This document shows, in pieces, positions 5,846 through 64,000 of a stretch of DNA of 64,000 nucleotides (position 1 is the first letter of the stretch; every line of letters starts with the position of its first letter). The DNA lies in assembly GCA_905233375.1 (NCBI GenBank), contig CAJOEJ010000004.1:1-64000 (forward strand), in the 5' to 3' direction. A model generated the notes under the pieces. The model had not been told where the DNA came from and did not search any database. It saw only the letters and a list, made by a program, of their open reading frames with translations. The stretch comes from Paludibacteraceae bacterium. GTDB taxonomy: Bacteria > Bacteroidota > Bacteroidia > Bacteroidales > Paludibacteraceae. Both the position numbers and the translations under genes were made by a program.

Positions 5846-6394
5846 ATGAAGATCATAGGCTTTGTATATACTACGGAACGCGTGGAGATGGTTCTCAAAG
5901 GGGACTCTTGTCTTCTCAACGGCGGCAAGCCTCTCTTCCTGCCGGACTGGACGTCCGAATTGGGCGTGACCGAGTGTATGATTCTTCGCGTGAGCCGCTT
6001 GGGCAAAGAGATCGATGAGCGTTTTGCGAACCGCTATTACGATGCGGTGGCTCCGGGAGCGGACTTTGTGGCGCTGGACATCCTGCGCGAGGCGCAAGCG
6101 AACGGACAGCCGTGGACGACCGCTCTCGCCTTTGACTACTCGCTCGCCATCGGAAAATGGATTAATGTACAAAGGGACAATGTACAAGGTACAAAGGACA
6201 AAGGACAAAGGACAAAGGAGGAGTTTGTGATGACGCCCGAAGAGGCGGTCGCCGCAGCCAGCAAGGTCATGACGATCCGGCAAGGGGATCTCATTTATAT
6301 CCACAAGAAGCACACTCCGCGGGTGGTACACAAAGAGGATATCATCCGCACGGAGGCAAACGGAGAAGAGAAATTATACTGCAAGATCAAATGA
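5846..6394 (+). CDS. divergent, shortened fumarylacetoacetate hydrolase (FAH)-family protein
   Basis: GKPLFLPDW...LRVSRLGKEIDERFANRYYDAVAPGADFVALDILREAQANGQPWTTALAFDYSLAIGKW matches FAH-family layout; C-term MTIRQGDLIYI. Confidence 0.7.
   Translation: MKIIGFVYTTERVEMVLKGDSCLLNGGKPLFLPDWTSELGVTECMILRVSRLGKEIDERFANRYYDAVAPGADFVALDILREAQANGQPWTTALAFDYSLAIGKWINVQRDNVQGTKDKGQRTKEEFVMTPEEAVAAASKVMTIRQGDLIYIHKKHTPRVVHKEDIIRTEANGEEKLYCKIK
6166..6215. repeat. stop-free 7-bp array (TGTACAA AGGGACAA TGTACAA GGTACAA 3x AGGACAA) inside the CDS
   Basis: read directly; encodes VQRDNVQGTKDKGQRTKE. Confidence 0.85.
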
Positions 6395-17377: not shown

Positions 17378-17440
17378 ATTATTGGTGATTGGTGATTGGT
17401 GATTGGATATTGGTGATTGGTCATTAGTGATTGGTGAATA
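17378..17440. repeat. 7-bp period array, ~8 units of GTGATTG (variants GATATTG, GTCATTA)
   Basis: exact 7-bp register 17385-17440; begins right after the recA stop. Confidence 0.92.
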
Positions 17441-19002: not shown

Positions 19003-19158
19003 ATGTCTTGGTAATATCTAACCAATATCTAAGAAATATATAAGGAATCACTAACTTTTTGAACGCACTGTATTATATGCATAGTATATAATACTATAAA
19101 TGTCCGAATTCAATCCGGACAAAACATACGAAGCAAAAGAACTGTAAAAATAACATGA

Positions 19159-19191
19159 GAAAAGTGAGAATTTTGAGAATTCTCACTTTTC
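19159..19191. terminator. hairpin between convergent genes
   Basis: GAAAAGTGAGAATT-TTGAG-AATTCTCACTTTTC, 14-bp perfect stem. Confidence 0.75.
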
Positions 19192-19213
19192 TTACTTTTC
19201 TCAGAGCAAATTT

Positions 19214-49852: not shown

Positions 49853-52800
49853 TTATTTCACCACTTTACCCGTTGCATCAAACAGTTTCTCGCCGCGGAG
49901 GATGTAGATATGGTCGTCAATGAGCACCTTGGTACATTGTACGTTGTCCCCCTGTACATTTCCGATTTCTGTCGGCATCTGCTGCGGGTTGGCGATCAGG
50001 AGGAGTCCGTATCCCTCGTTCTGTCCGCGTGTGAGCGTCAGCTCGTACGGGTTGAGCGACAGGTTCCAGATGATCGAACCGTTGAGCGTCAGATAGAGTA
50101 CTGCATCCTCGCGCTGCGTCGGCGTAGAGAGCGTGTACTGTCCATCCGCCGGAGCGTAGAGACCCAGGTTGTACGCTGCCTTGCCGAGATGGAGCGGAGC
50201 ATCCTCCACCGCCAGACGCATTCCGTAGTTGTTCGTCCAGAGGAGTGCGTGCTTAGCGGTTGTACCGTTCAGCGTGGCTACATCATGACCGTACTCGTAT
50301 TGCGCCGTAGCCTCTTCCGAAGCGCGGACATACATCTGGTTAGCGAACGTCTTGGCTCCGTTGCGGGTAATGCGTACGCAGTACTCGTATTTGTCACTTG
50401 TCGCTGTTGCGCGCTCAGGAGCACGGAGCGATCCGTTAATAGTACTCGACAGATCTACATTGGAACTACTGTGGATAAAGAACGGGGTACCGACTACGAA
50501 TGAGCTGGACGCTGCGCTATAGCTCTGATAGCCGCGGTTCTCCTCGTCGTTCTCAAATACTTGTACGCTCAGTGCCGCATCATTCAATGTGATATAATGC
50601 ATGGTCGGGTTAGCCACACCGTTCCAGTTGGAGTTGTTCAGCCGTTCTTCTTCGGTATCGCCTACCGTACTTTCCCATTCACCCAACTCTATCTGGCTCG
50701 GATCGCTGATGGTGTTGCTTGCCGCTTTCAGACGGATAGTGGTCGGCTGACCTGCATTGAATCCTATGAGGCACGCCATGCCGGCAGGCATCTGACCTTG
50801 TACGCGCTTCCAACCGATGTTACCGGACATCGCACGTTTCGATCCGTCATACTCGAACAGGTCGAAGATGTTGGTTCCGCTGCCTGTACCGGAATGCATC
50901 GTTGCACCGCTTGCCGGGTTGATGAATCCATCAGCGAGGTTCACTGCAAACGGCGCCGAGATCATGTACCACTGGTTAGCACTCGTCTCATCCAGTACGT
51001 CTGCATCGCCGTAGAACTTGATATCCATGAAGATGTTTCCGTTCACGGTAGCCGTAGCGTCATTGCCCTTGACCAGTTGTCCGGACTTACCTGCCATCGA
51101 CTCGATCGTCAGGTCGTTGATCGTCAACGCCTTATTATCAGCCACCGTTACCGTACCGCCGTTTTCAATGGTCAAGTTGTCCAAAGTAGCATTCTCGTTG
51201 ATTGTCAGCGTGATATTGTCTTTTACGATGACCATATCGGTATTCGTAACCTCCGATACATTCATATCGCTGCTGATGTTCTTCGCCCACTTGTAGATAG
51301 CGATGTCGCTTTGAGTTGTAGTACCATAACAATTGAACAGATTCGATCCCTTGTTGTAACGCATGATCTTATCCGAATTATTGCCTTGTGCCACAATCGA
51401 AGCCTTCTTATTTACAATATCAATCGCCCATACGCCTTGCATGGTGATACCAGTTTGCGTCTTCAATGCATTTGGAGCATACAGATAACCCTTTTGACTC
51501 GGATCTACATTAGGATCGGTAGTATAAGCTCTATCATAGAATGCATAATAATCATTCTCCGGATCATACTGTAAGAATAGCGGAGCTACATTGCTGGTGT
51601 AAGTCAACGTATCAGCGATCTTTGTTACCGCAGCATCACCACGGTTGCTGGTCTTCTGGTACTTGCTCAGAGCAGCATTATCACCGGCAGCAGCAATCAC
51701 GATGAAGTCACCGGCTTTCAACTGGCTCTTGTTCTGTATCAGGATCCACTTGCCGTCCGATAGATCCGCTGCATCTGCAGTAGCTACATCGATAACTGGC
51801 ATCCAAACAGCGGTGTACGTTCTGTCTTCCGCAGGATTGTCCATGTGTTGGTTAGCCTGTCCGCCGGTGTACATACTGCCGTTCCATTTCCAGCCGATAA
51901 ACTCTTTGCCGGCTTCAACCAATGCAGCTGCCAAATCGAACGTACCACCGTCATATACCTTGATAGGACTTCCGGCTACTTCACTTTCTCCATTCATGAA
52001 ATGTACAAATGCATGGTGGTCTTCGTCCCATTGAGCAACGAGTGTCTCACCGTCAACCGGTACAATATAAGTCATACTTGTACTTTCCGAATAGGTCACA
52101 TCATAATGTGCGGAGTACCAACCTGCGAAGGTGTGATGATCTTTGCTCAATGCACTTCCGTCTGGTAGAGTGATCTCTACATCTGCTTTCTTCGTTACCT
52201 TTTCGTAAGAACCTGTAGCACCGGTACCTGCATCAAACAGCACATCATAACGCGGATCACAATCGGTGATATAGTCAATTTCAGTAACCTCTTTTTCGTA
52301 CGTTACCTCTATCTTCGAAATATCAATACGATAACTATTACTTGTTGCCATATTAACAACTGTCAGTTTATCCGTAGAAAGATCCTCTAATGTAATCTTT
52401 CCGTCTGTTACGGTGCCTGATGTTAATGCAGTAGTATTTCCTGTTGTATAGGAATTGGTCACATATCCATAGGCCGAACCGGTAGTCGTAAACTCAACTT
52501 TAGTAAGCGTTACACCAGATGCTCCCGAAACAGTTATAGAGTTACCATCTTTTTGACCACTTAGTATTTGATATAAGCGCATGCTTGTACCTGTCTGACC
52601 GGGATTTGAAGAACCACCATTCTTTTGTGTAGTGTAAGTAATACCGGTACTGATAGTTCCAGAACTAATCTCACTACTTGCAAATCCGGTCTTAGAAACA
52701 GTAAACTCTTTATTTACATTCTCCGACTTCGACCAAACAGCGTAGTAAGTATTATTTGCTGCGGTTACGCCTGTAGTTGCTGCACCGGTAATAATATTTT

Positions 52801-55800
52801 CTATCGTCGGGTTCTCCGCATTTGCTTCTAATATCCAACCTGCAAACGTATTATGGTCTTTACAATCGGTTACACCTGCTGCATGTGCGCTCGGTGTCGG
52901 CATGTCGTAGGTATTTATCTGAGGATCAAACGTCTCACCCCACAAACCATCGATAAACCGGTCGGCTACAACATCCTCAACTGTCAGCGTGTACGAAGCA
53001 ATCTCTTCTTCGCCGATGTACAGTTTCAAGGTCTTGCCATTATCCTCCAGCGACAGGGCGTCATTGTTAGCAATAGCAACACCGTCCAACTTAGCCGTCC
53101 AAGCGTCTGTGTAGGTCTCTTGTTTGGTGATGGTGTTATCGTCATCACGCATAAAGTTCTCTTTGATAACTACACCAGCCGTGCTGAACTTCTCTACCTT
53201 GTAGTATTCAATCTTCGGAGCAGTTGCAACACTATAATGCGGATCTGCTGCAATCCATTCGTACGTGCTGTACGTAGCCGTAACCGTTACATCATTATCC
53301 GGCATCGTGAATACAACCGGGTTCGTATTCGCAAGAACTACGCCCGTAGCGCTCCAACCGGTGAAGACGTAACCGTCATTCTCCGTTGCGCTCAGCGTAA
53401 TTGAAGTTCCGTAATCAACATTTGCCAAGTCTGCTGCACCTGTAGCCTCAATCGTGTTACCTGTCGGTTGATTCAGCGTTATAGCGTGTGAGTTAATGCT
53501 CCAAACAGCATAGAGAATTACGTCCTCTGCAAACTCGACATCTGCTTGACTGTTATTATATTCCTTGTCGCCACTCGGAGTCGTTGCCCAACCTTGGAAC
53601 GTATATCCCGTTCTGCTGAACGAGTTAGCGTCCAATGTAAACGCACTGTTGCTGGTCGCGTTTTGACTCGTCGTTTCCGGATCCAGCGAACCATCGTTCG
53701 CGTTATAGGTAACGGTAATAGAACCGTTCACCGTTACATCCACCGTTGTCTCATATGCGCAATAGCCATCTGCACCAGCCCAAGCGATCGTAACGATTGC
53801 ACTTCCGGCTTTCACACCGGTGATCTTACCATCCGCAGCTACCGTCAGGACAGCTTCAGCACTGGACTCATAACTTGCCATTCCGTGTGCTGTTCCTGTA
53901 ACTGTCACTGCTACTACATCGTCCACGCTGATCACATTACTCTCGCCGTACTTCGCAGTAGCCGTCCACTCTTCACAGCAATTGGAGATAAACTCAGTAG
54001 CTCCTGCAACCTGCTTGTAAATCTGGAAGGTTTGTTGCGTACTCGTGTAACATGCCCAACGTGGTTGCAAAGCATTGTATTGCATAATTCGTCCTGTACT
54101 ATTGGCATTCGTGAATTGGAAATCACCGTCCGATACACTCATAGTCCAACTGGATGCTGCATTTAGTGTTTCGGAGGTGTATAAGTTATTACCAGTTCCG
54201 GAATAACTCAAATAATCATCACCATTCTTAAATGCATAAGAATTATTAGCCGAACCGGCCATAACAGTCAGCGGATACACACCTGCCGGAGTGGTTGTAT
54301 AAGAAGCCGTTGTACCGATATTGCCAGATACTCCGGAGAGTTCTCGTGTTGCACCCTCCTTCACAAATATCACCACATCACCAACTGCAATTGATGTCGC
54401 TTTCTGCCAGCCACCAACGAGATCGCCGTTAGCCCAAACAGCGTAATAGGTCTCATCTCCGGTCGGAGTGTGGTCTGCATCAGCCTTAGTACCGCTAACA
54501 TTGTCACTCGGATCTTCAGCAGTGCCTGCTGCAACAGAATACCAACCGATAAAGGTGCTATAACCTGCGTTGCAACTTGCCGGCTCGCCTACAGGCAGAA
54601 CCAGTTTATTGCCGGCATTGACCGTCGAAGTGGTTGTTGCTCCGTTAATGGACCAAGTGATCGTATAGATCTGTTGGAAGTTAGCCGTTACCGTTACATT
54701 CTGCGCAGGCATCGTGAACGAAGCGCCATCCTCAGAAGTCGGATTGGTAATCGTTACGTCGCTCGAAGTCCAGTTCACAAACTCATATCCGTCCGGAACG
54801 GTCGTTGTCAGATTGATTGTACCATTATAATGCGCCGTGGTCGTTTGACCCGTTGTGGTAGCACCCGCAGCAGGGGATTGGTTCACTGTTACGGTGTAAT
54901 CAGCATCTGCCCAGATAGCATACAGCGTCACGTCGCCGGTCAGTTCGTAAGCACCTGCCGCCACATCTGCACCGCTACCATTTGCTGCCGTGTTCCATTT
55001 CAAGAAATGCTTGCCTGTCGGAGCGGTAAACGCATTAGCGGCTACCGTTACCGTTCTGTTTGCTGCACTCTCCTCACAACTTACCGGAGTCGCAGGAATC
55101 GGATCCATCGTGCCCGAACCACCGTTTGCGTTGTACTTCAACTGATAGAACGGAACGAAGTGGCAAACGAAGTTATAATCGGTAATGTTATTATTCCAAA
55201 TACGGAACTTACCCGTTGTACCGGTAGGCTCGCTATTCAAGAATGTCTCCTTGTACTCACCTGCTGTACCGTTGCTGACTTTCATTGCCGTCACGCTACG
55301 TGTACGAGAGATACCACGTGCGTCACTGGCCTCGTTATCTACACCGCTATAGACGTAACCGCTTGCGGTCTGCAAACCTACGTAGTAGTCCCATGCTGTG
55401 TTATTCGTGCCATCCAGCGTTACCAATTCCGTCCAATAGGTATTGGCATTATTGGCATCCACCGTAAAGGCTTTCGTGCAGGCTTCTGCAGTCCAATCCG
55501 GATTCTCATGATCGCCCCAACGGAAACCGTAACCGTCCGGCTCAAACTTAGCATGCAGGTTATTTGTCTTATTATCATCCCAGATATGTAATGTACCTGT
55601 TGCACCTTCAGCCAAACCTACTGTAGCATCGGAACTGGTAAACTTCATATCCGCGATGGTGGCATTTGCTGAGAACGATGCCCAAGCCTCATTCTCTCCA
55701 ATCCAGTACTCAGGCCAGTTGTTGCTTCCGTCTTTTCCAGGAACAACAAACGCAAGTGTATATTCGTTGCCGGAACCGCCATTACTGAATCCGCTTTGTA

Positions 55801-58800
55801 TGCCGTTATTGTTAGAATTGAACAAACTGATGCAGTAACCCGAAGGAGCGATAGATGTGATCGTTGCTACCTGAGAAGTAGCCGTTTCACCACAAGCACT
55901 ATTAGTTACAATAACACGATAGTATTTGGTACCTTCTGTTGCTATATTCGGTGTATAAGTTTCAGCTGTTCCTACAGCGCCTTCAATGTCATCCCAACTG
56001 TCATTGTCGGCACTTACCTGCCATTGTTGCGTCAAACTTGCACCTGCCGCACTTGCCGTGTAACCCAAAGCAGTTGCAACATCCGTTGTTAGATAATTAG
56101 TCTTGCTTGCAGGATGAACCGTAAACGTCGGCTTTACGCATTGTAAGTTGGCCGTAACCGTCACATCCGCGGTACCCATCGTGATAGTGGTCGGATTGGC
56201 TGTATTGTCATCCAAACTTGCTCCCGTTCCGGAAATAGTCCAGTTGACAAACTCATATCCGGCTGTAATAGCGGAATATTCAGCTGTTGTTGTGCTGCCC
56301 TCTGCTACACTCGTTGCACCTAATTCTACAGTTGCTTTACCCGTCGGATCAACTGCCGAACTAACGGAATGAGAGGGTATACAGGTAGTAAGGAAAGCGG
56401 AATAAGTTGTAGTTACGCCATCATAGGTAATTGAAATATCATCTACATATCGTACAGCGGTTGTGTTGCTACAATGGAAGCGAACATACAATGCTGTTTC
56501 TCCGTCGAAATCTTTGCTCTTGGATGTATAAGAGCCATTACCAAATCCACTCAATGGATAAGTTTCTGCCGCACTCCAGTTTGACCCATCTGCGGAAGTC
56601 TCAATGATTGCCGAATAGTTACTATTATCGGTCGTACGCTTTAGTTTAAATGAGAAATTAGTTACTTTAACTTTGTCATTAAACGTAATGTATGTATTAT
56701 TTGTATTAATTTTCCCGGCATAAGAACCCGTTGCTCCTTGGCCTGAAGTTTTAATTATTGCATCGGTTATTGTCCAACAACTAGCGTCATCTGCATCTTC
56801 AAACCCGTATGTCTTTGTGACTTCACTTCCTGATGTTTCCTTTTTTGTCCAAACGGCATGGTACTTGATCGTCTTGCCGTTATCACCTTCTACAACAGCC
56901 GGAAGAGTTGCACCCTTCAAATAAACCTTTACATCAGCAGCAGTCTTAGCATCTACCTGCTCTTTCGTCAAGGTCTCTGTCCAAGCTGTTTGCGTCCAAC
57001 CATAGTGTGTAGTACTCGTCTCATCACAAGCGTCGTGATCATGACCATCGGTCAACGTAGGAGCCTCCGGCGTCTCGCCTAACCAATATGTGGTTGAACT
57101 GAGAGCCGAACCACCGTTATTGTAGAACTCAACCGTACATTTCGGTTTCTCGGTAAAGTGCGCTGTGATCTCAGCATTTGCCGTACCCATCGTTACTGTC
57201 ACAGGATTAGCATTAGCATCGCTCAATGACGCGTCCGTTCCGCTAATCGTCCAGTGACTGAACGTATAGTGCGCACTCGGAGTAGCTGTAGCCTTTGTGG
57301 TCTTGCCTTCAACCAAAGTCTCTTTACCCAACTCTACCGTACCACTTACCGGCGAACTCGGATCAATAGCCGATGTCAAATCATGTGTCGTACAGTTCGG
57401 GCTCGTTGTATAAGGAGCACCTGCAGAAGGAACTTTATCACGCTTATACAAATCGATTTGGTTTGTTTGAGAGGTTGCTGGTCTAAAGTATTTGGTATCG
57501 CCACTATAGGATAATTGTTGTGTGGGTTCCGTTACTGATGTAAATGTCCAACTATTCGACTTCGTTGTCCCATAGTCAAAGGTAAACTCATAACTACCAG
57601 CCTGCATTGTAATTGCTCCGGAATTGATGGCAAGATACTTCTCTCCGCTAAATAGAGTTACACGGCTTCCATTCTTCGTAATCGTCCATACGCATGTAGT
57701 ATTTTCTGTCGATTTTACGTTTCCTGAAGCAGAGATGGATACTTCATCCATACGAGCACCGTTCACTGTATTCTTCATACAGTAACTTCCACTCGAAATC
57801 AAATAATCTCCATTAGTCAATTCACCTGCGGAAGTAATCTTCGTGTAGTTATTCGTATAACGGTCTTCTATTGTCGCATAAATCGCATAGAAATGGTTTT
57901 CACCTGCTACCAGAGCCTTGCTTGCCTCTTTGGCAATATACTTTTCACCACTTGGAGCAGTTGGCTGATCGACATACGCTTCGGTGTACCAGCCGTACAA
58001 TTCCGATTCTGTACAAGTAGCAGCAGTATTGGGCAAAGTATAACTATCTGCCTCATAGTACGGATCTGCTTGCGTATGTGCACCTGTTGCATCGTGCAGA
58101 ATAACCGTTGCCGTCTCTTTGGGAGTATTATAAGCGATGCTAACAGCAATAGCGCTTTGTACATTAGCGATAGTTACGCTGGTAGCTGAATTAACGGTGA
58201 TAGCACCGTGTGTACCCGTTGCTGTTACGGTTGGATTGCCCTTATAAGCTGGCGCAGCTGTACAAGTAATCGTCAAATCGCTTCCACATGCAATCGGGTT
58301 AACCGAATAACTATGACTTGCTACACTTGAAGCAATAGTACCATCCGTTACGGCAAAAGTCTTAGTCTTCCATATAGCCCACAGGGTTGTAGCCTCGGTA
58401 ACTGTGATATTGGCACCATTTGCATAAGCAACCGTGCCGGCTGTAGCATTTGCTTCTGAACTTGCCCAACCACCAAACTCCTTGCAAGATGGAGCGGTAT
58501 AACTACGGGCACTGACATCCTCCAACGCTGTTTCGGTGTTATAATCCACTTCTTGAGTCTGATCATCTGTTCCAGTTGCACCGTTCTTCTTGAAAGTAAT
58601 AACCATCTTACCGCTGATATCTATACTTGCCGCCGAGAATCTCTCGTCTCCTGTAGCACAATAGTTGCCTGCGCCCGAGTATGTCGGAGTTACAGAAACC
58701 CAATAAGTTCCTGCACCCGGATTCTCGAATGTATATGTTTTTGCTGTTCCGGCTGTATTACCAGACTTAAGAACACTTGATTGGTCGCTATTATACAACG

Positions 58801-60445
58801 TAACCAGATATCCGGTCTCATTACCGCCTGTCGTAGCACCCCATCCGTTTGCAACCAAATCGTTGCCCGATTGGATCAAACTAATCGGACCGTTAATTGT
58901 GCCAAGGGGTTGGCAGCAATCTGTGGAATATGCGGAACGAGTTGCAACATAAAGTCTTTCTGTAAAGTAAGGTGAACTTGTATAACCATTATTGGTATAT
59001 ACGACCCACTTAGGAGTGGATGAATTGTATTCCAAACAGCATTTATCTTTTGCAGTATTTCTTAAATAGAAGGTGTTATCTGCTCCAGTACTTGATGCTA
59101 TTTCCCAAGTACTATTAGAGGGGGTCAAACTAACCTGATTATTATTATCCGTTGAAGTTGTTCCAAGATAAGAACTTCCTGTTTTTAATTTCCAATAAGA
59201 ACTACTAGCCTCTAAAGTCCAAATCATGTTAGCAGCAGGAGTAATTTTTCCTTGTGCATTTTCAGTCGGTGCATTTGCGTATCCTGGGGTTGTTGTTAAA
59301 ACTTTTGTGTTAGAATTATCAACAACTACGATAACTTTACCCGCTGCTAATTGACTAAGGTCAGTTACACGGGTAAATTCACTTTGATTTGCAAAGACCG
59401 CATAAAAGGTATTACTTTCTCCCAGGGTTACAGAAGTACCCGGCTCATAAAAATTGCTTGATGGTTTTGTGTCCTGTGAAGCCACTTCTCCAGTACTCCA
59501 GCCGACAAAGGCTTTACCTCCACTACAGCTATAGTTGTTTGTGCTTGGCAAAGTGAAACTTTCACCTGATTCATATCCTGTTGTAGTTGCACTTCCACTA
59601 TAATTATTGAGAGTAATAGAAGCCGGAGGATTATTAACCGTAAAATTGACATCCACGTCTTTTGCACAATACGTGGCATTTCCCGCCCAACTTACAGTTA
59701 CTTTTGCGCTTCCTTTCGCTACTGGAGTTACTTCACCTGTAGAAGAATTGACAGTTAAAATATTTGTGTTACTTGACGCATAACTAGCAGAACCATAAGT
59801 TGTGCCAGATATCGATGAAACAGTAGCATGTGTGCCCCCTGCTGTCAATGTGGTTGCGGAATAATTAACTGTTGGATCAGACCAAGACTGACAAGAAGGG
59901 GCTTTAAGTAACACAATACCATAAGTACTTGTTAAATTACTTGAGCCATATTGTTTCCAGTAATTAGCGTCTTTATTAACACCCAAATAATTGGAACCAC
60001 TCGCGAAACGGAATCCAGAAGAATAGGATACAATCCATGTTGTCGGATTTGAGGTGGCCCAAGAAATACCGCTATTCAAATATTTACTTTGACCGCTATT
60101 GTATATAGTGACCGACCGTGACGTTCCAGTACCGGAAACTGTTAAATGCCAGATCTCATTAGCGGTAGTTGTTGTATATGAGTTTGGAATATTGCTTGCA
60201 CTTGTATAGTGCGATGAATATGGGATTCTGGAGTTGTTAAGAGTTCCATAGGTTAAACGCCCATAAGATGTGGTCGTCCTACAACCTACTATCACATAAT
60301 CTCCAGTTGTTAAATCAGAAAGAGAAGTGATTTTTGTAAAAGTCTCTCCCCACATCTGCCCAACGCCAAGCGTGAGCATCATTACAAGCGCCCAAACAAA
60401 GCGCGAAGTCCTTTTAAAACAACAGGGGGGGGGTATTCGCCTCAT
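49853..60445 (-). CDS. giant secreted repeat protein (3530 aa), InlB-type/Ig-like/trefoil-like modules, T9SS-type C-terminus
   Basis: signal peptide RFVWALVMMLTLGVGQMWG; repeated TVTYNANDGSLDPETTSQ..., FSHWTISGTDASLSDANANPVTVTMGTA; C-term IDDHIYILRGEKLFDATGKVVK. Confidence 0.85.
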   Translation of the reverse strand: MRRIPPPCCFKRTSRFVWALVMMLTLGVGQMWGETFTKITSLSDLTTGDYVIVGCRTTTSYGRLTYGTLNNSRIPYSSHYTSASNIPNSYTTTTANEIWHLTVSGTGTSRSVTIYNSGQSKYLNSGISWATSNPTTWIVSYSSGFRFASGSNYLGVNKDANYWKQYGSSNLTSTYGIVLLKAPSCQSWSDPTVNYSATTLTAGGTHATVSSISGTTYGSASYASSNTNILTVNSSTGEVTPVAKGSAKVTVSWAGNATYCAKDVDVNFTVNNPPASITLNNYSGSATTTGYESGESFTLPSTNNYSCSGGKAFVGWSTGEVASQDTKPSSNFYEPGTSVTLGESNTFYAVFANQSEFTRVTDLSQLAAGKVIVVVDNSNTKVLTTTPGYANAPTENAQGKITPAANMIWTLEASSSYWKLKTGSSYLGTTSTDNNNQVSLTPSNSTWEIASSTGADNTFYLRNTAKDKCCLEYNSSTPKWVVYTNNGYTSSPYFTERLYVATRSAYSTDCCQPLGTINGPISLIQSGNDLVANGWGATTGGNETGYLVTLYNSDQSSVLKSGNTAGTAKTYTFENPGAGTYWVSVTPTYSGAGNYCATGDERFSAASIDISGKMVITFKKNGATGTDDQTQEVDYNTETALEDVSARSYTAPSCKEFGGWASSEANATAGTVAYANGANITVTEATTLWAIWKTKTFAVTDGTIASSVASHSYSVNPIACGSDLTITCTAAPAYKGNPTVTATGTHGAITVNSATSVTIANVQSAIAVSIAYNTPKETATVILHDATGAHTQADPYYEADSYTLPNTAATCTESELYGWYTEAYVDQPTAPSGEKYIAKEASKALVAGENHFYAIYATIEDRYTNNYTKITSAGELTNGDYLISSGSYCMKNTVNGARMDEVSISASGNVKSTENTTCVWTITKNGSRVTLFSGEKYLAINSGAITMQAGSYEFTFDYGTTKSNSWTFTSVTEPTQQLSYSGDTKYFRPATSQTNQIDLYKRDKVPSAGAPYTTSPNCTTHDLTSAIDPSSPVSGTVELGKETLVEGKTTKATATPSAHYTFSHWTISGTDASLSDANANPVTVTMGTANAEITAHFTEKPKCTVEFYNNGGSALSSTTYWLGETPEAPTLTDGHDHDACDETSTTHYGWTQTAWTETLTKEQVDAKTAADVKVYLKGATLPAVVEGDNGKTIKYHAVWTKKETSGSEVTKTYGFEDADDASCWTITDAIIKTSGQGATGSYAGKINTNNTYITFNDKVKVTNFSFKLKRTTDNSNYSAIIETSADGSNWSAAETYPLSGFGNGSYTSKSKDFDGETALYVRFHCSNTTAVRYVDDISITYDGVTTTYSAFLTTCIPSHSVSSAVDPTGKATVELGATSVAEGSTTTAEYSAITAGYEFVNWTISGTGASLDDNTANPTTITMGTADVTVTANLQCVKPTFTVHPASKTNYLTTDVATALGYTASAAGASLTQQWQVSADNDSWDDIEGAVGTAETYTPNIATEGTKYYRVIVTNSACGETATSQVATITSIAPSGYCISLFNSNNNGIQSGFSNGGSGNEYTLAFVVPGKDGSNNWPEYWIGENEAWASFSANATIADMKFTSSDATVGLAEGATGTLHIWDDNKTNNLHAKFEPDGYGFRWGDHENPDWTAEACTKAFTVDANNANTYWTELVTLDGTNNTAWDYYVGLQTASGYVYSGVDNEASDARGISRTRSVTAMKVSNGTAGEYKETFLNSEPTGTTGKFRIWNNNITDYNFVCHFVPFYQLKYNANGGSGTMDPIPATPVSCEESAANRTVTVAANAFTAPTGKHFLKWNTAANGSGADVAAGAYELTGDVTLYAIWADADYTVTVNQSPAAGATTTGQTTTAHYNGTINLTTTVPDGYEFVNWTSSDVTITNPTSEDGASFTMPAQNVTVTANFQQIYTITWSINGATTTSTVNAGNKLVLPVGEPASCNAGYSTFIGWYSVAAGTAEDPSDNVSGTKADADHTPTGDETYYAVWANGDLVGGWQKATSIAVGDVVIFVKEGATRELSGVSGNIGTTASYTTTPAGVYPLTVMAGSANNSYAFKNGDDYLSYSGTGNNLYTSETLNAASSWTMSVSDGDFQFTNANSTGRIMQYNALQPRWACYTSTQQTFQIYKQVAGATEFISNCCEEWTATAKYGESNVISVDDVVAVTVTGTAHGMASYESSAEAVLTVAADGKITGVKAGSAIVTIAWAGADGYCAYETTVDVTVNGSITVTYNANDGSLDPETTSQNATSNSAFTLDANSFSRTGYTFQGWATTPSGDKEYNNSQADVEFAEDVILYAVWSINSHAITLNQPTGNTIEATGAADLANVDYGTSITLSATENDGYVFTGWSATGVVLANTNPVVFTMPDNDVTVTATYSTYEWIAADPHYSVATAPKIEYYKVEKFSTAGVVIKENFMRDDDNTITKQETYTDAWTAKLDGVAIANNDALSLEDNGKTLKLYIGEEEIASYTLTVEDVVADRFIDGLWGETFDPQINTYDMPTPSAHAAGVTDCKDHNTFAGWILEANAENPTIENIITGAATTGVTAANNTYYAVWSKSENVNKEFTVSKTGFASSEISSGTISTGITYTTQKNGGSSNPGQTGTSMRLYQILSGQKDGNSITVSGASGVTLTKVEFTTTGSAYGYVTNSYTTGNTTALTSGTVTDGKITLEDLSTDKLTVVNMATSNSYRIDISKIEVTYEKEVTEIDYITDCDPRYDVLFDAGTGATGSYEKVTKKADVEITLPDGSALSKDHHTFAGWYSAHYDVTYSESTSMTYIVPVDGETLVAQWDEDHHAFVHFMNGESEVAGSPIKVYDGGTFDLAAALVEAGKEFIGWKWNGSMYTGGQANQHMDNPAEDRTYTAVWMPVIDVATADAADLSDGKWILIQNKSQLKAGDFIVIAAAGDNAALSKYQKTSNRGDAAVTKIADTLTYTSNVAPLFLQYDPENDYYAFYDRAYTTDPNVDPSQKGYLYAPNALKTQTGITMQGVWAIDIVNKKASIVAQGNNSDKIMRYNKGSNLFNCYGTTTQSDIAIYKWAKNISSDMNVSEVTNTDMVIVKDNITLTINENATLDNLTIENGGTVTVADNKALTINDLTIESMAGKSGQLVKGNDATATVNGNIFMDIKFYGDADVLDETSANQWYMISAPFAVNLADGFINPASGATMHSGTGSGTNIFDLFEYDGSKRAMSGNIGWKRVQGQMPAGMACLIGFNAGQPTTIRLKAASNTISDPSQIELGEWESTVGDTEEERLNNSNWNGVANPTMHYITLNDAALSVQVFENDEENRGYQSYSAASSSFVVGTPFFIHSSSNVDLSSTINGSLRAPERATATSDKYEYCVRITRNGAKTFANQMYVRASEEATAQYEYGHDVATLNGTTAKHALLWTNNYGMRLAVEDAPLHLGKAAYNLGLYAPADGQYTLSTPTQREDAVLYLTLNGSIIWNLSLNPYELTLTRGQNEGYGLLLIANPQQMPTEIGNVQGDNVQCTKVLIDDHIYILRGEKLFDATGKVVK
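60425..60433. repeat. G9/C9 homopolymer in the 5' coding region of the 3530-aa gene
   Basis: aacaGGGGGGGGGtattc, encoding PPP at codons 5-7. Confidence 0.9.
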
Positions 60446-60547
60446 TTTCCGTGCTCACTCCGCACCCTCCATTTCGATTAACAAAAAAGTTAAAATTTTT
60501 CATATTGTTTGTTATTTTTAAATTATTTTCTCTCTTACTTGATCCTT

Positions 60548-60832
60548 TTTTGGACCATTTTTGGTCATTTTTGGACTAACCTCTAAAAATTTGCTCTGGC
60601 ATTTTTGGCACTTTTGGCACTTTCGCCATCAATAGTGCCAAAAGTGCCATTAGTGCCATGCGATTTTTCACATTGAGATTTTGAGACTTTTGAGACACTT
60701 TCGCATAATTCGCTTAATTCGTGTACTTTACAACTGTCTCAATTGTCTCAACTGTCTCAACTGTCTCATGTAAATTTTGCATGGCGATCTTGACGTTCTT
60801 GGCGATATCGCCAATATCGCCACTTTCGCCAG
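60548..60832. repeat. cluster of short-period (8-10 bp) repeats and palindromes upstream of the 3530-aa gene
   Basis: TTTTTGGACCA/TTTTTGGTCA/TTTTTGGACT; GGCACTTTTGGCACT...AGTGCCAAAAGTGCC; 4x AA(C/T)TGTCTC; TTGGCGATATCGCCAA. Confidence 0.88.
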
Positions 60833-60983
60833 TGCATTTTTGCTCTGTCAGTTTTTACTTGTTAAAGATCACTTTTTATAGCAAAACCTTAGTGATTGCT
60901 TATATATTGCTTAATCATTCCTTATTCATTCTCGGTCCTCTCTGCCTCTATTCTTGGATGGATCATTGTGTCATTTCTTCCTT

Positions 60984-62114
60984 TTAATTCTTTTCTCTCT
61001 TCAATAGTTTTCTTAATTCTTCTGCGGATGGTAGTGCCTTATATGTGTCAGGCAATTCGTCTACGCTGCGATATGTCGCTACTCCCATCGGTTTTGATAT
61101 ATCCCGTAGCGCGAACTCTACTTCTGCATTATCTTTATTACGGCAGAGTAGAATACCAACACTCGGATTTTCTTCGGGCAATCGAACTAACTCATCCAAA
61201 GCCGACAAATAATAATTCAGTTTTCCTGCATATTCCGGCTGAAACTCTCCATTCTTCAGTTCAATAGCCACAAGGCATCGCATCCTTCTGTGATAGAAGA
61301 GCAAATCAATAAACCGTTCTTTATTATTTACGATCAGCCGATATTGATTGCCCATGAAAGCAAAATCATTACCAAGCGACATCATAAATTTTCGAACATT
61401 GTTAACTATCTGCTGCTCTACATCGTGCTCATCCACAAAATCAGGATCCTCTATATGCAAAAAGTCAAGCACATTGTCTTCCTTGAATGTCTGCATCGCT
61501 ATCGTGCGTTGCTTGTCATCAGGCAATGTGAGCGCAAAGTTATTAGGCATGGAGCCTGCAGTATGATACAAATCATCCCGTAGTGCTTGCTCCAAACGAC
61601 GATATCCCCAAAACTCCTGTGCACATTTTCGTATATAAAACCACCGCTCGTCGATGTCCTTAACTTTGGATATGATAGAATAATGATGCGTAAATCCAAC
61701 AGCAAGGAAAGCGGAAATGTCCTCATTTGTTATTTCGCTCGTCACTGCCGAGTAAAATATAAACGGTTGTATTTCAGCGCTTTGGGGCATTATGTTAAAT
61801 TCGTTCGGCACTGCCGAGTGAATTTCAAACACCTCACACCATTCCTCATAAAACTGACGCATTTTTCGAATGTTTTTCTCCGAAAATCCCTTCAGTCCGG
61901 GCAGTTCTTGTTGCAGTTGATCAGAGATAGTTTGAATTGCGTTCGTGCCCCATTGGGCATTGCGGCTCTGCTCCGAAATATATTTGCCGATGGAATAGTA
62001 CAAGCCCAGCACCTCGCCGTTCATTTGACGAGCTGCACGGTAGCGACAAACCACAATAGCTTGCTTAATCGCCTTTACCGCTTGCGCATAATCTGCTTTT
62101 ATTATCTGTTCCAT
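60984..62114 (-). CDS. DUF1016 / YhcG-like PDDEXK nuclease family protein
   Basis: ISDQLQQELPGLKGFSEKNIRKMRQFYEEW; ERFIDLLFYHRRMRCLVAIELKNGEFQPEYAGKLNYYLSALD. Confidence 0.92.
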   Translation of the reverse strand: MEQIIKADYAQAVKAIKQAIVVCRYRAARQMNGEVLGLYYSIGKYISEQSRNAQWGTNAIQTISDQLQQELPGLKGFSEKNIRKMRQFYEEWCEVFEIHSAVPNEFNIMPQSAEIQPFIFYSAVTSEITNEDISAFLAVGFTHHYSIISKVKDIDERWFYIRKCAQEFWGYRRLEQALRDDLYHTAGSMPNNFALTLPDDKQRTIAMQTFKEDNVLDFLHIEDPDFVDEHDVEQQIVNNVRKFMMSLGNDFAFMGNQYRLIVNNKERFIDLLFYHRRMRCLVAIELKNGEFQPEYAGKLNYYLSALDELVRLPEENPSVGILLCRNKDNAEVEFALRDISKPMGVATYRSVDELPDTYKALPSAEELRKLLKREKN

Positions 62115-62303
62115 CCTTATTTTCCTTTCAATTCTTTTCTCTCTTACTTGATCCTTTTTTTCGACCCTTTTTGGTTATTTGGGACATACTGAAAAAGACT
62201 GTATATAACAAAACTGACACGGAACAATGTTCTAATTTCGCGACAAAGTCGCTCGAACGATTATTTCCATGCCAGACTGATATGCAGTGTGATCGTGTGA
62301 CGA

Positions 62304-63546: not shown

Positions 63547-64000
63547 TTTTTTTTGATATTACCAAATTTTTTAGGCAAAAAGTTTAATATAGTTAACATT
63601 TTTGAATTAAATTTGTTAAATCTAATTAAACGAATCTTCTTTTTATTTGTTTAGTTAGCCCTATTTGCGATACAATTTTACTACTATCAGTCTTTTTCAA
63701 TATGTTAATGTTCGCTTTGCTTCTTTTTAGTGTAGCAATAAACACTATTGTTTGATGTTTTTAAATTATTACTTATTTATGATAATCAATATTCACCTTT
63801 AAAGAATGTATGCTTGCTTCTTGAGCAAAACCTTCTTGAAATTCTTGCAACGTCATATTGTTTGTTATTTTAATTATTTTCTCAAGCATCCTTGATCCTT
63901 TTACAATTATCTCCGCGTTCTGAGAGAGTTTGTTATTCCCATATCGGGTGTATGTCGGGTGTATGTCGGGTCATGAACGCGACCATCACGGGACCACGTC

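Follow-up and report, generated by a model that had tools for sequence, protein, structure and literature searches.

A block of inverted 9-mer modules in a rumen Bacteroidales genome as probable orphan iteron-type sites for DUF3987-like mobile-element helicases

The 64,000-nt stretch of DNA analysed here (the window) carries at 60548-60832 a 285-bp block so dense in short repeats and palindromes that the question arises what kind of element it is. An earlier note had distinguished five kinds of iteration in it and proposed an iteron-like binding region, a regulatory switch of the adjacent gene for a 3530-aa protein or a repeat-birth hotspot. All five kinds were confirmed in the sequence. The arms GGCACTTTTGGCACT and AGTGCCAAAAGTGCC are exact at 60607-60621 and 60634-60648 and enclose a 12-nt loop, and the four AA(C/T)TGTCTC units (60732-60767) and TTGGCGATATCGCCAA (60799-60814) are exact as well. 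The tandem-array score of the 285 bp was 98, whereas 1000 first-order Markov shuffles averaged 0.7 and never exceeded 20; like an iteron origin, the block contains tandem short repeats of one sequence above chance. The period had been given as 8-10 bp, of which the short-period iteration was borne out, but the dominant period is 9: the self-match of the block was 0.543 at lag 9 and 0.15-0.29 at lags 5-8 and 10-14. When folded as RNA, the block gave z = -6.1 on either strand.

Underlying the five kinds of iteration are three inverted 9-mer modules and a leader of period 10/11 (Table 1). Every module consists of two tandem 9-mer arrays in inverted orientation that converge on each other, and short A/T-rich spacers join the three modules. 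An 11-mer array lying beyond the interval originally noted is part of the same composite.

Table 1. Coordinates of the repeat composites and neighbouring features in the window.
Feature	Position	Strand	Remarks
Second composite	19013-19213	+	11-mer array 19013-19048, AT hairpin, GAGAA module 19156-19203; between convergent genes
3530-aa InlB/List-Bact repeat protein gene	49853-60445	-	neighbour only
Leader, period-10/11 units TTTTTGGACCA/TTTTTGGTCA/TTTTTGGACT	60548-60577	.	related copies at 62126-62180 and 63853-63902
Module 1, word GGCAC	60597-60658	-	three 9-mers, loop, three inverted 9-mers
Inter-module spacer TGCGATTTTTCACAT	60659-60673	.	spacer of the same type in sister species
Module 2, word GAGAC	60674-60768	-	9-mers GAGATTTT/GAGACTTTT/GAGACAC, AT-rich loop 60700-60726, four AA(C/T)TGTCTC
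Stretch shared with sister species	60768-61002	.	98.7% identical to the locus in G015 (RUG12549), contig 11
Module 3, word GGCGA	60782-60831	-	loop-free inverted pair of three 9-mers; most conserved module
11-mer array (AAGGAATNACT-type)	60887-60931	-	ahead of the modules on the minus strand; fixed distance conserved in the composite
DUF1016/YhcG nuclease gene	60984-62114	-	3' end precedes the composite

Is the composite tied to the 3530-aa gene? The home genome is a Bacteroidales MAG of 2.23 Mb (84% complete), of which 1.26 Mb was examined for modules. Apart from the block, genuine inverted 9-mer modules were found there only on contig 19 and at window 19156-19203, and composites numbered three in the 1.26 Mb examined; GGCGA copies amount to a few per genome. 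The parts of a composite come in a constant order: first the 11-mer array, which some composites lack, then a spacer hairpin or CCAAAAATG units, between one and four modules whose words differ, and finally a GCAAATTTTTA-like end. Composites lie between convergent genes (window 19013-19213; L063), behind DUF1016, RhuM-like and HAD genes, and next to many unrelated genes. Recurring in such varied genic contexts, the composite has no specific tie to the 3530-aa gene, and we therefore rejected the suggestion that the block is a promoter or regulatory switch of this giant gene.

Pieces of the block matched 16 of 41 related genomes, and the species-wide genome collection contained the exact GGCGA core in 24 stretches, each from an uncultured Bacteroidales/Paludibacteraceae MAG. 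The GAGAC array occurred in only one of the 184 genera of the order. Among the MAG assemblies compared, which are incomplete, the composite is restricted to one rumen Bacteroidales genus. The GGCGA core was not found in IMG/VR, and a phage or plasmid origin of the block was rejected since nucleotide searches gave no matches in phages or plasmids.

At orthologous sites the module content varies between species. A surface-sugar locus (L126-L132, L143, L145) has modules at the 3' end of its HAD-phosphatase gene; sister species differ there both in the module sets and in the genes that come after the modules (DUF1016, RhuM-like, LicD-like and others). The stretch at 60768-61002 is nearly identical to the sister-species locus, whereas core genes of the home genome and RUG12549 share only 71-79% identity (rsmG 78.9%, FAD-protein gene 70.9%). 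This difference indicates recent horizontal spread or exchange of the stretch and points to a composite that has probably spread in part horizontally. In addition, direct repeats AATTCTTTTCTCTCTT bracket the DUF1016 gene (window 60982-61002, 62126-62146, 60517-60536 and 63853-63902), and the sister locus in RUG12549 looks like a version lacking the DUF1016 unit; the unit may, as this suggests, be a gene cassette exchanged at direct repeats.

Three of the 37 distinct GGCGA elements touch the stop codon of a DUF3987 gene. Genes of this family are present in 49 of the 81 genomes of the genus, and an inverted tandem module (period 7-10) lies within 330 nt of the stop in 53 of the 58 DUF3987 genes of the genus that were examined. 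For 37 DUF3987 genes the distance is at most 15 nt, compared with 2 of 92 control genes of the genus that have a module so close to their stop. In class A the module begins 0-15 nt past the gene, and its first word often opens with the stop TGA. The class B module is about 100-200 nt further downstream, preceded by an 11-mer array that resembles the one in the window and in the same order. The proteins, of about 420 aa, consist of DUF3987 and a C-terminal region with no primase domain detected, and in intact units the DUF3987 gene is followed by the module and then by the start of a conserved small gene. The words behind DUF3987 genes fall into more than ten types. GGCGA occurs at the stop codon of L048, L051 and L167, and GAGAC occurs behind L311, L318 and L326 as well as behind the phage primases L256, L261 and L274. 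The DUF3987-associated modules nearest to module 1 are those of L297 and L336 (a GACAC/GGCAC mix) and of L294/L316/L317 (TGCAC).

Iteron origins adjoin an initiator gene. This adjacency is found for the 53 of 58 DUF3987 genes and for some phage primases, and the block of the window is itself an orphan, with no DUF3987 gene in the 64 kb or the near flank. The two usable DUF3987 copies of the home genome carry other words (GACGG for the copy on contig 10, L307, and AACTTT), so that in this 84% complete genome no cognate protein is known for the three words of the block. The DUF3987 module is followed by a conserved protein of about 140 aa (L339:2550-2966 and homologs), for which NCBIfam and PHROGs gave no match and Pfam none above the cut-off (two relatives tried). 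A second DUF3987 subfamily of the genus (L355, L357, L364, L366, L367) often has, as seen by eye, three direct 8-9-mers and then a CACANNTGTG-like sequence near the stop.

The words behind DUF3987 genes vary together with the proteins. Word distance correlated with C-terminal distance (Mantel r 0.33, 0 of 2000 permutations). The partial correlation of word with C-terminal similarity was 0.37 when the core was removed (0 of 2000 permutations), and that of word with core similarity was -0.26 when the C-terminus was removed. Among the period-8/9 modules, Arg at residue a of the C-terminal winged-helix motif SxaTxcdW is paired with C at position 4 of the word (TGAC, TGGC, TGTC, TTGC), and Ala or Ser goes with G, T or A (TGAG, TGAT, TGAA), in 44 of 44 cases; Glu at residue c goes with G at position 5 in 33 of 33, and Thr mostly with C. 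Textbook side-chain/base contacts are consistent with Arg facing a C:G pair and Glu facing a G:C pair. On a quick tree built from the protein minus its C-terminus, ten changes each were counted for residue a and for position 4, and five each for residue E and for position 5; the independent well-supported pairs agree in 6 of 6 cases. The Fisher values of the word-residue link (2e-10 and 5e-9) overstate the evidence, since the rows are related and the tree is quick, and the independent pairs give a more reliable figure. A weak match to the MCM structure 2m45 was obtained with the C-terminal 42 residues (E 0.068), and the structure model of the putative winged helix is of low confidence.

The code was read and scored on one set, outside which only two phage lineages bear on it. 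A scan of viral contigs with the GAGAC pattern gave 23 contigs from other habitats, several of the matches lying inside open frames. In one lineage (L261 and L274) 25 nt separate the module from a preceding Zn-ribbon/Toprim/AAA primase with the tail SRATVYRW, and in the other (L256) the module starts 12 nt after a frame that ends in ADSTAKRW; both lineages fit the GAG word rule outside the training set. Loci related to DUF3987 were searched for in viral contigs, and none were found. A clear inverted module was lacking in nine DUF3987 homologs that are more distant and come from Bacteroides-type plasmids and phage records; several of them had only short direct repeats. Four of the nine are annotated within a BT4734-DUF3987-DUF4248-HU-smalltalk-amidase locus, which recurs in Bacteroides (L344-L346, L348) and has short direct repeats after some of its DUF3987 genes.

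We consider it probable that the block consists of three orphan iteron-type sites, most likely replication-origin modules, for DUF3987-like mobile-element helicases. A module would be made of inverted tandem 9-mers, each with a 6-base word and a 3-base A/T-rich spacer, in about three copies per arm. In an intact element it would lie just past the DUF3987 stop and be read by the C-terminal winged helix of the protein of that same gene, and the block of the window would represent copies, dispersed or left over, that stand apart from their cognate helicases. From the gene association and the word-residue code, it is very probable that the modules are cognate DNA sites of DUF3987 winged helices, and the iteron-like binding region of the earlier note is thereby supported and gains a candidate class of partner. 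Specificity for a cognate initiator, as in iteron origins, is found for the DUF3987-linked modules and would extend to the orphans. That the bound module would also mark an origin is suggested by analogy and only marginally favoured, and we lean somewhat towards the orphans being dispersed or left-over sites. They could be remnants, trans-mobilised mini-elements or domesticated 3'-end hairpins.

Iteron origins near satellite and plasmid initiators are the nearest known analogue. Those of plasmids and of the phage satellites P4, SaPI/PICI and PLE likewise have short tandem repeats whose sequence is specific to the cognate initiator and which lie in or beside the replication gene, and the RepA_N iterons are 8-9 bp repeats built of converging inverted repeats (PMC7145576). 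The modules described here differ in that they are facing arrays in the form of a hairpin, often start in the stop codon and have DUF3987 as a putative initiator; moreover, many are orphans stacked with other words, and their origin role is putative. In PMC5862659, DUF3987 domains are predicted to be helicases of mobile-element replication, and the PrimPol-PV1 primase/helicases resemble our proteins in the DUF3987 ATPase domain followed by a C-terminal winged helix that may recognise the origin; the proteins of about 420 aa differ in having no detected primase domain. No cognate site for PrimPol-PV1/DUF3987 is described in the excerpts consulted, and the literature we found names no site for DUF3987 proteins. 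Literature searches also found no repeats of this kind in Bacteroidetes.

The word-residue code indicates recognition and not its purpose, and the modules could instead be operators by which the DUF3987 winged helix controls its own gene or the following small gene, the orphans being scattered regulatory sites. The position of the module in intact units, ahead of the small-gene start, would fit. However, the modules adjoin a stop codon and not a promoter, the orphans stand beside unrelated genes and sometimes between convergent ones, and the equivalent layout in phages comes after replication primases; we regard this explanation as rather unlikely. The same mosaics could also be transcribed 3'-end hairpins of the REP/BIME kind, serving as terminators or mRNA stabilisers and spreading as selfish intergenic repeats. 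Like REP/BIME, the composites are mosaics of imperfect extragenic palindromes in mixed order and number. The modules often touch stop codons, one strand is slightly more stable in 26 of 35 of them, and in three sister species an ordinary bidirectional intrinsic terminator hairpin stands in place of the composite at window 19003-19213. Yet such hairpins would predict neither the code nor the DUF3987 association, the elements also occur within tandem gene runs, and a terminator scan, for which a stem should run directly into a T-run, missed the three modules at 60.6 kb (the GAGAA module at 19 kb was called on both strands). REP/BIME reach more than 100 copies per genome (PMC2817692), in contrast to our three composites in 1.26 Mb, and differ from modules with internal 9-nt periodicity, genus-specific words and a DUF3987 partner. 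Hairpins of this kind are thus quite unlikely to account for the block. Strand-specific RNA structure was rejected because the strand bias is only mild; an Rfam search gave nothing above the gathering score, only sub-threshold microRNA hairpin look-alikes, and the usual attC core sites were not visible by eye at the module ends.

REP/BIME are associated with RAYT transposases, for which no link to the modules was found. Pfam Y1_Tnp was weak or absent. A diverged RAYT/Y1-transposase-like family with an HIH motif, missed or weak in Pfam, occurs in many genomes of the genus (G000:C10:87341-88000 and relatives; in G000 and G015 and not in G021); none was seen beside modules, and one copy lies about 3 kb from a DUF3987 unit. 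RAYT/REP mobility was set aside, the signal being weak and unlinked. The remaining suggestion of the earlier note, a repeat-birth hotspot, would have slippage and template switching at palindromes make and homogenise the arrays with no binding protein. The genus is indeed rich in short-period arrays (periods 7, 11 and 15), and the copy number within arms varies (L166, L177). But the word families are common to different loci and species, and slippage is not expected to change word and residue together at ten and five points of the tree. The hotspot is highly improbable and finds no support as an explanation: the modules are recurring families, of which intact members turn up elsewhere in the genome and in other species, and words beside DUF3987 genes match the encoded protein.

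Most short-period arrays in the 1.26 Mb have period 7 (n=187) or 11 (n=51), and none were found in shuffles; arrays of period 11, 14 and 15 also occur in the genus. Degenerate heptamer arrays (CCAATNA, GTACAAN, AGTTGAN; in the window, for example, 17380-17437 and 6169-6219) number about 15 per 100 kb in the genus and about 1 in other families, and those of GTACAAN lie within coding regions, translated as VQCTK-type stretches (L007:3940-4015; NVQCTKV in the C-termini of giant genes). Short tandemly repeated repetitive (STRR) heptamers occur in cyanobacteria, and similar short-period arrays such as TTGGTCA are found in this genus too. The block differs from these in its period of 9 and its inverted arms, the heptamers of the genus forming separate arrays.

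Beyond the reading of the block as orphan DUF3987 sites, we tentatively propose a broader one, which is possible rather than likely. A portable winged helix and an inverted 8-9-mer array may be swapped together among unrelated replication helicases and primases of bacteria and phages under a simple specificity code (Arg at a for C, Ala/Ser for G/T/A; Glu at c for G, Thr mostly for C). The array alone would spread between species as a non-autonomous origin-type element and stack in intergenic DNA, awaiting a cognate helicase.

DUF3987 proteins are common in the mobile DNA of Bacteroidetes, where a role as replication helicases that recognise origins through their tail is predicted. The modules, located at the 3' end of the DUF3987 gene itself, provide a candidate site for them. 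With matched proteins for more than ten types of word, the two-residue code would make a testable protein-DNA recognition code. Moreover, the orphan stacks suggest that the sites may spread unaccompanied by their gene, a point relevant to the way in which satellites and remnants make use of mobile-element replication.
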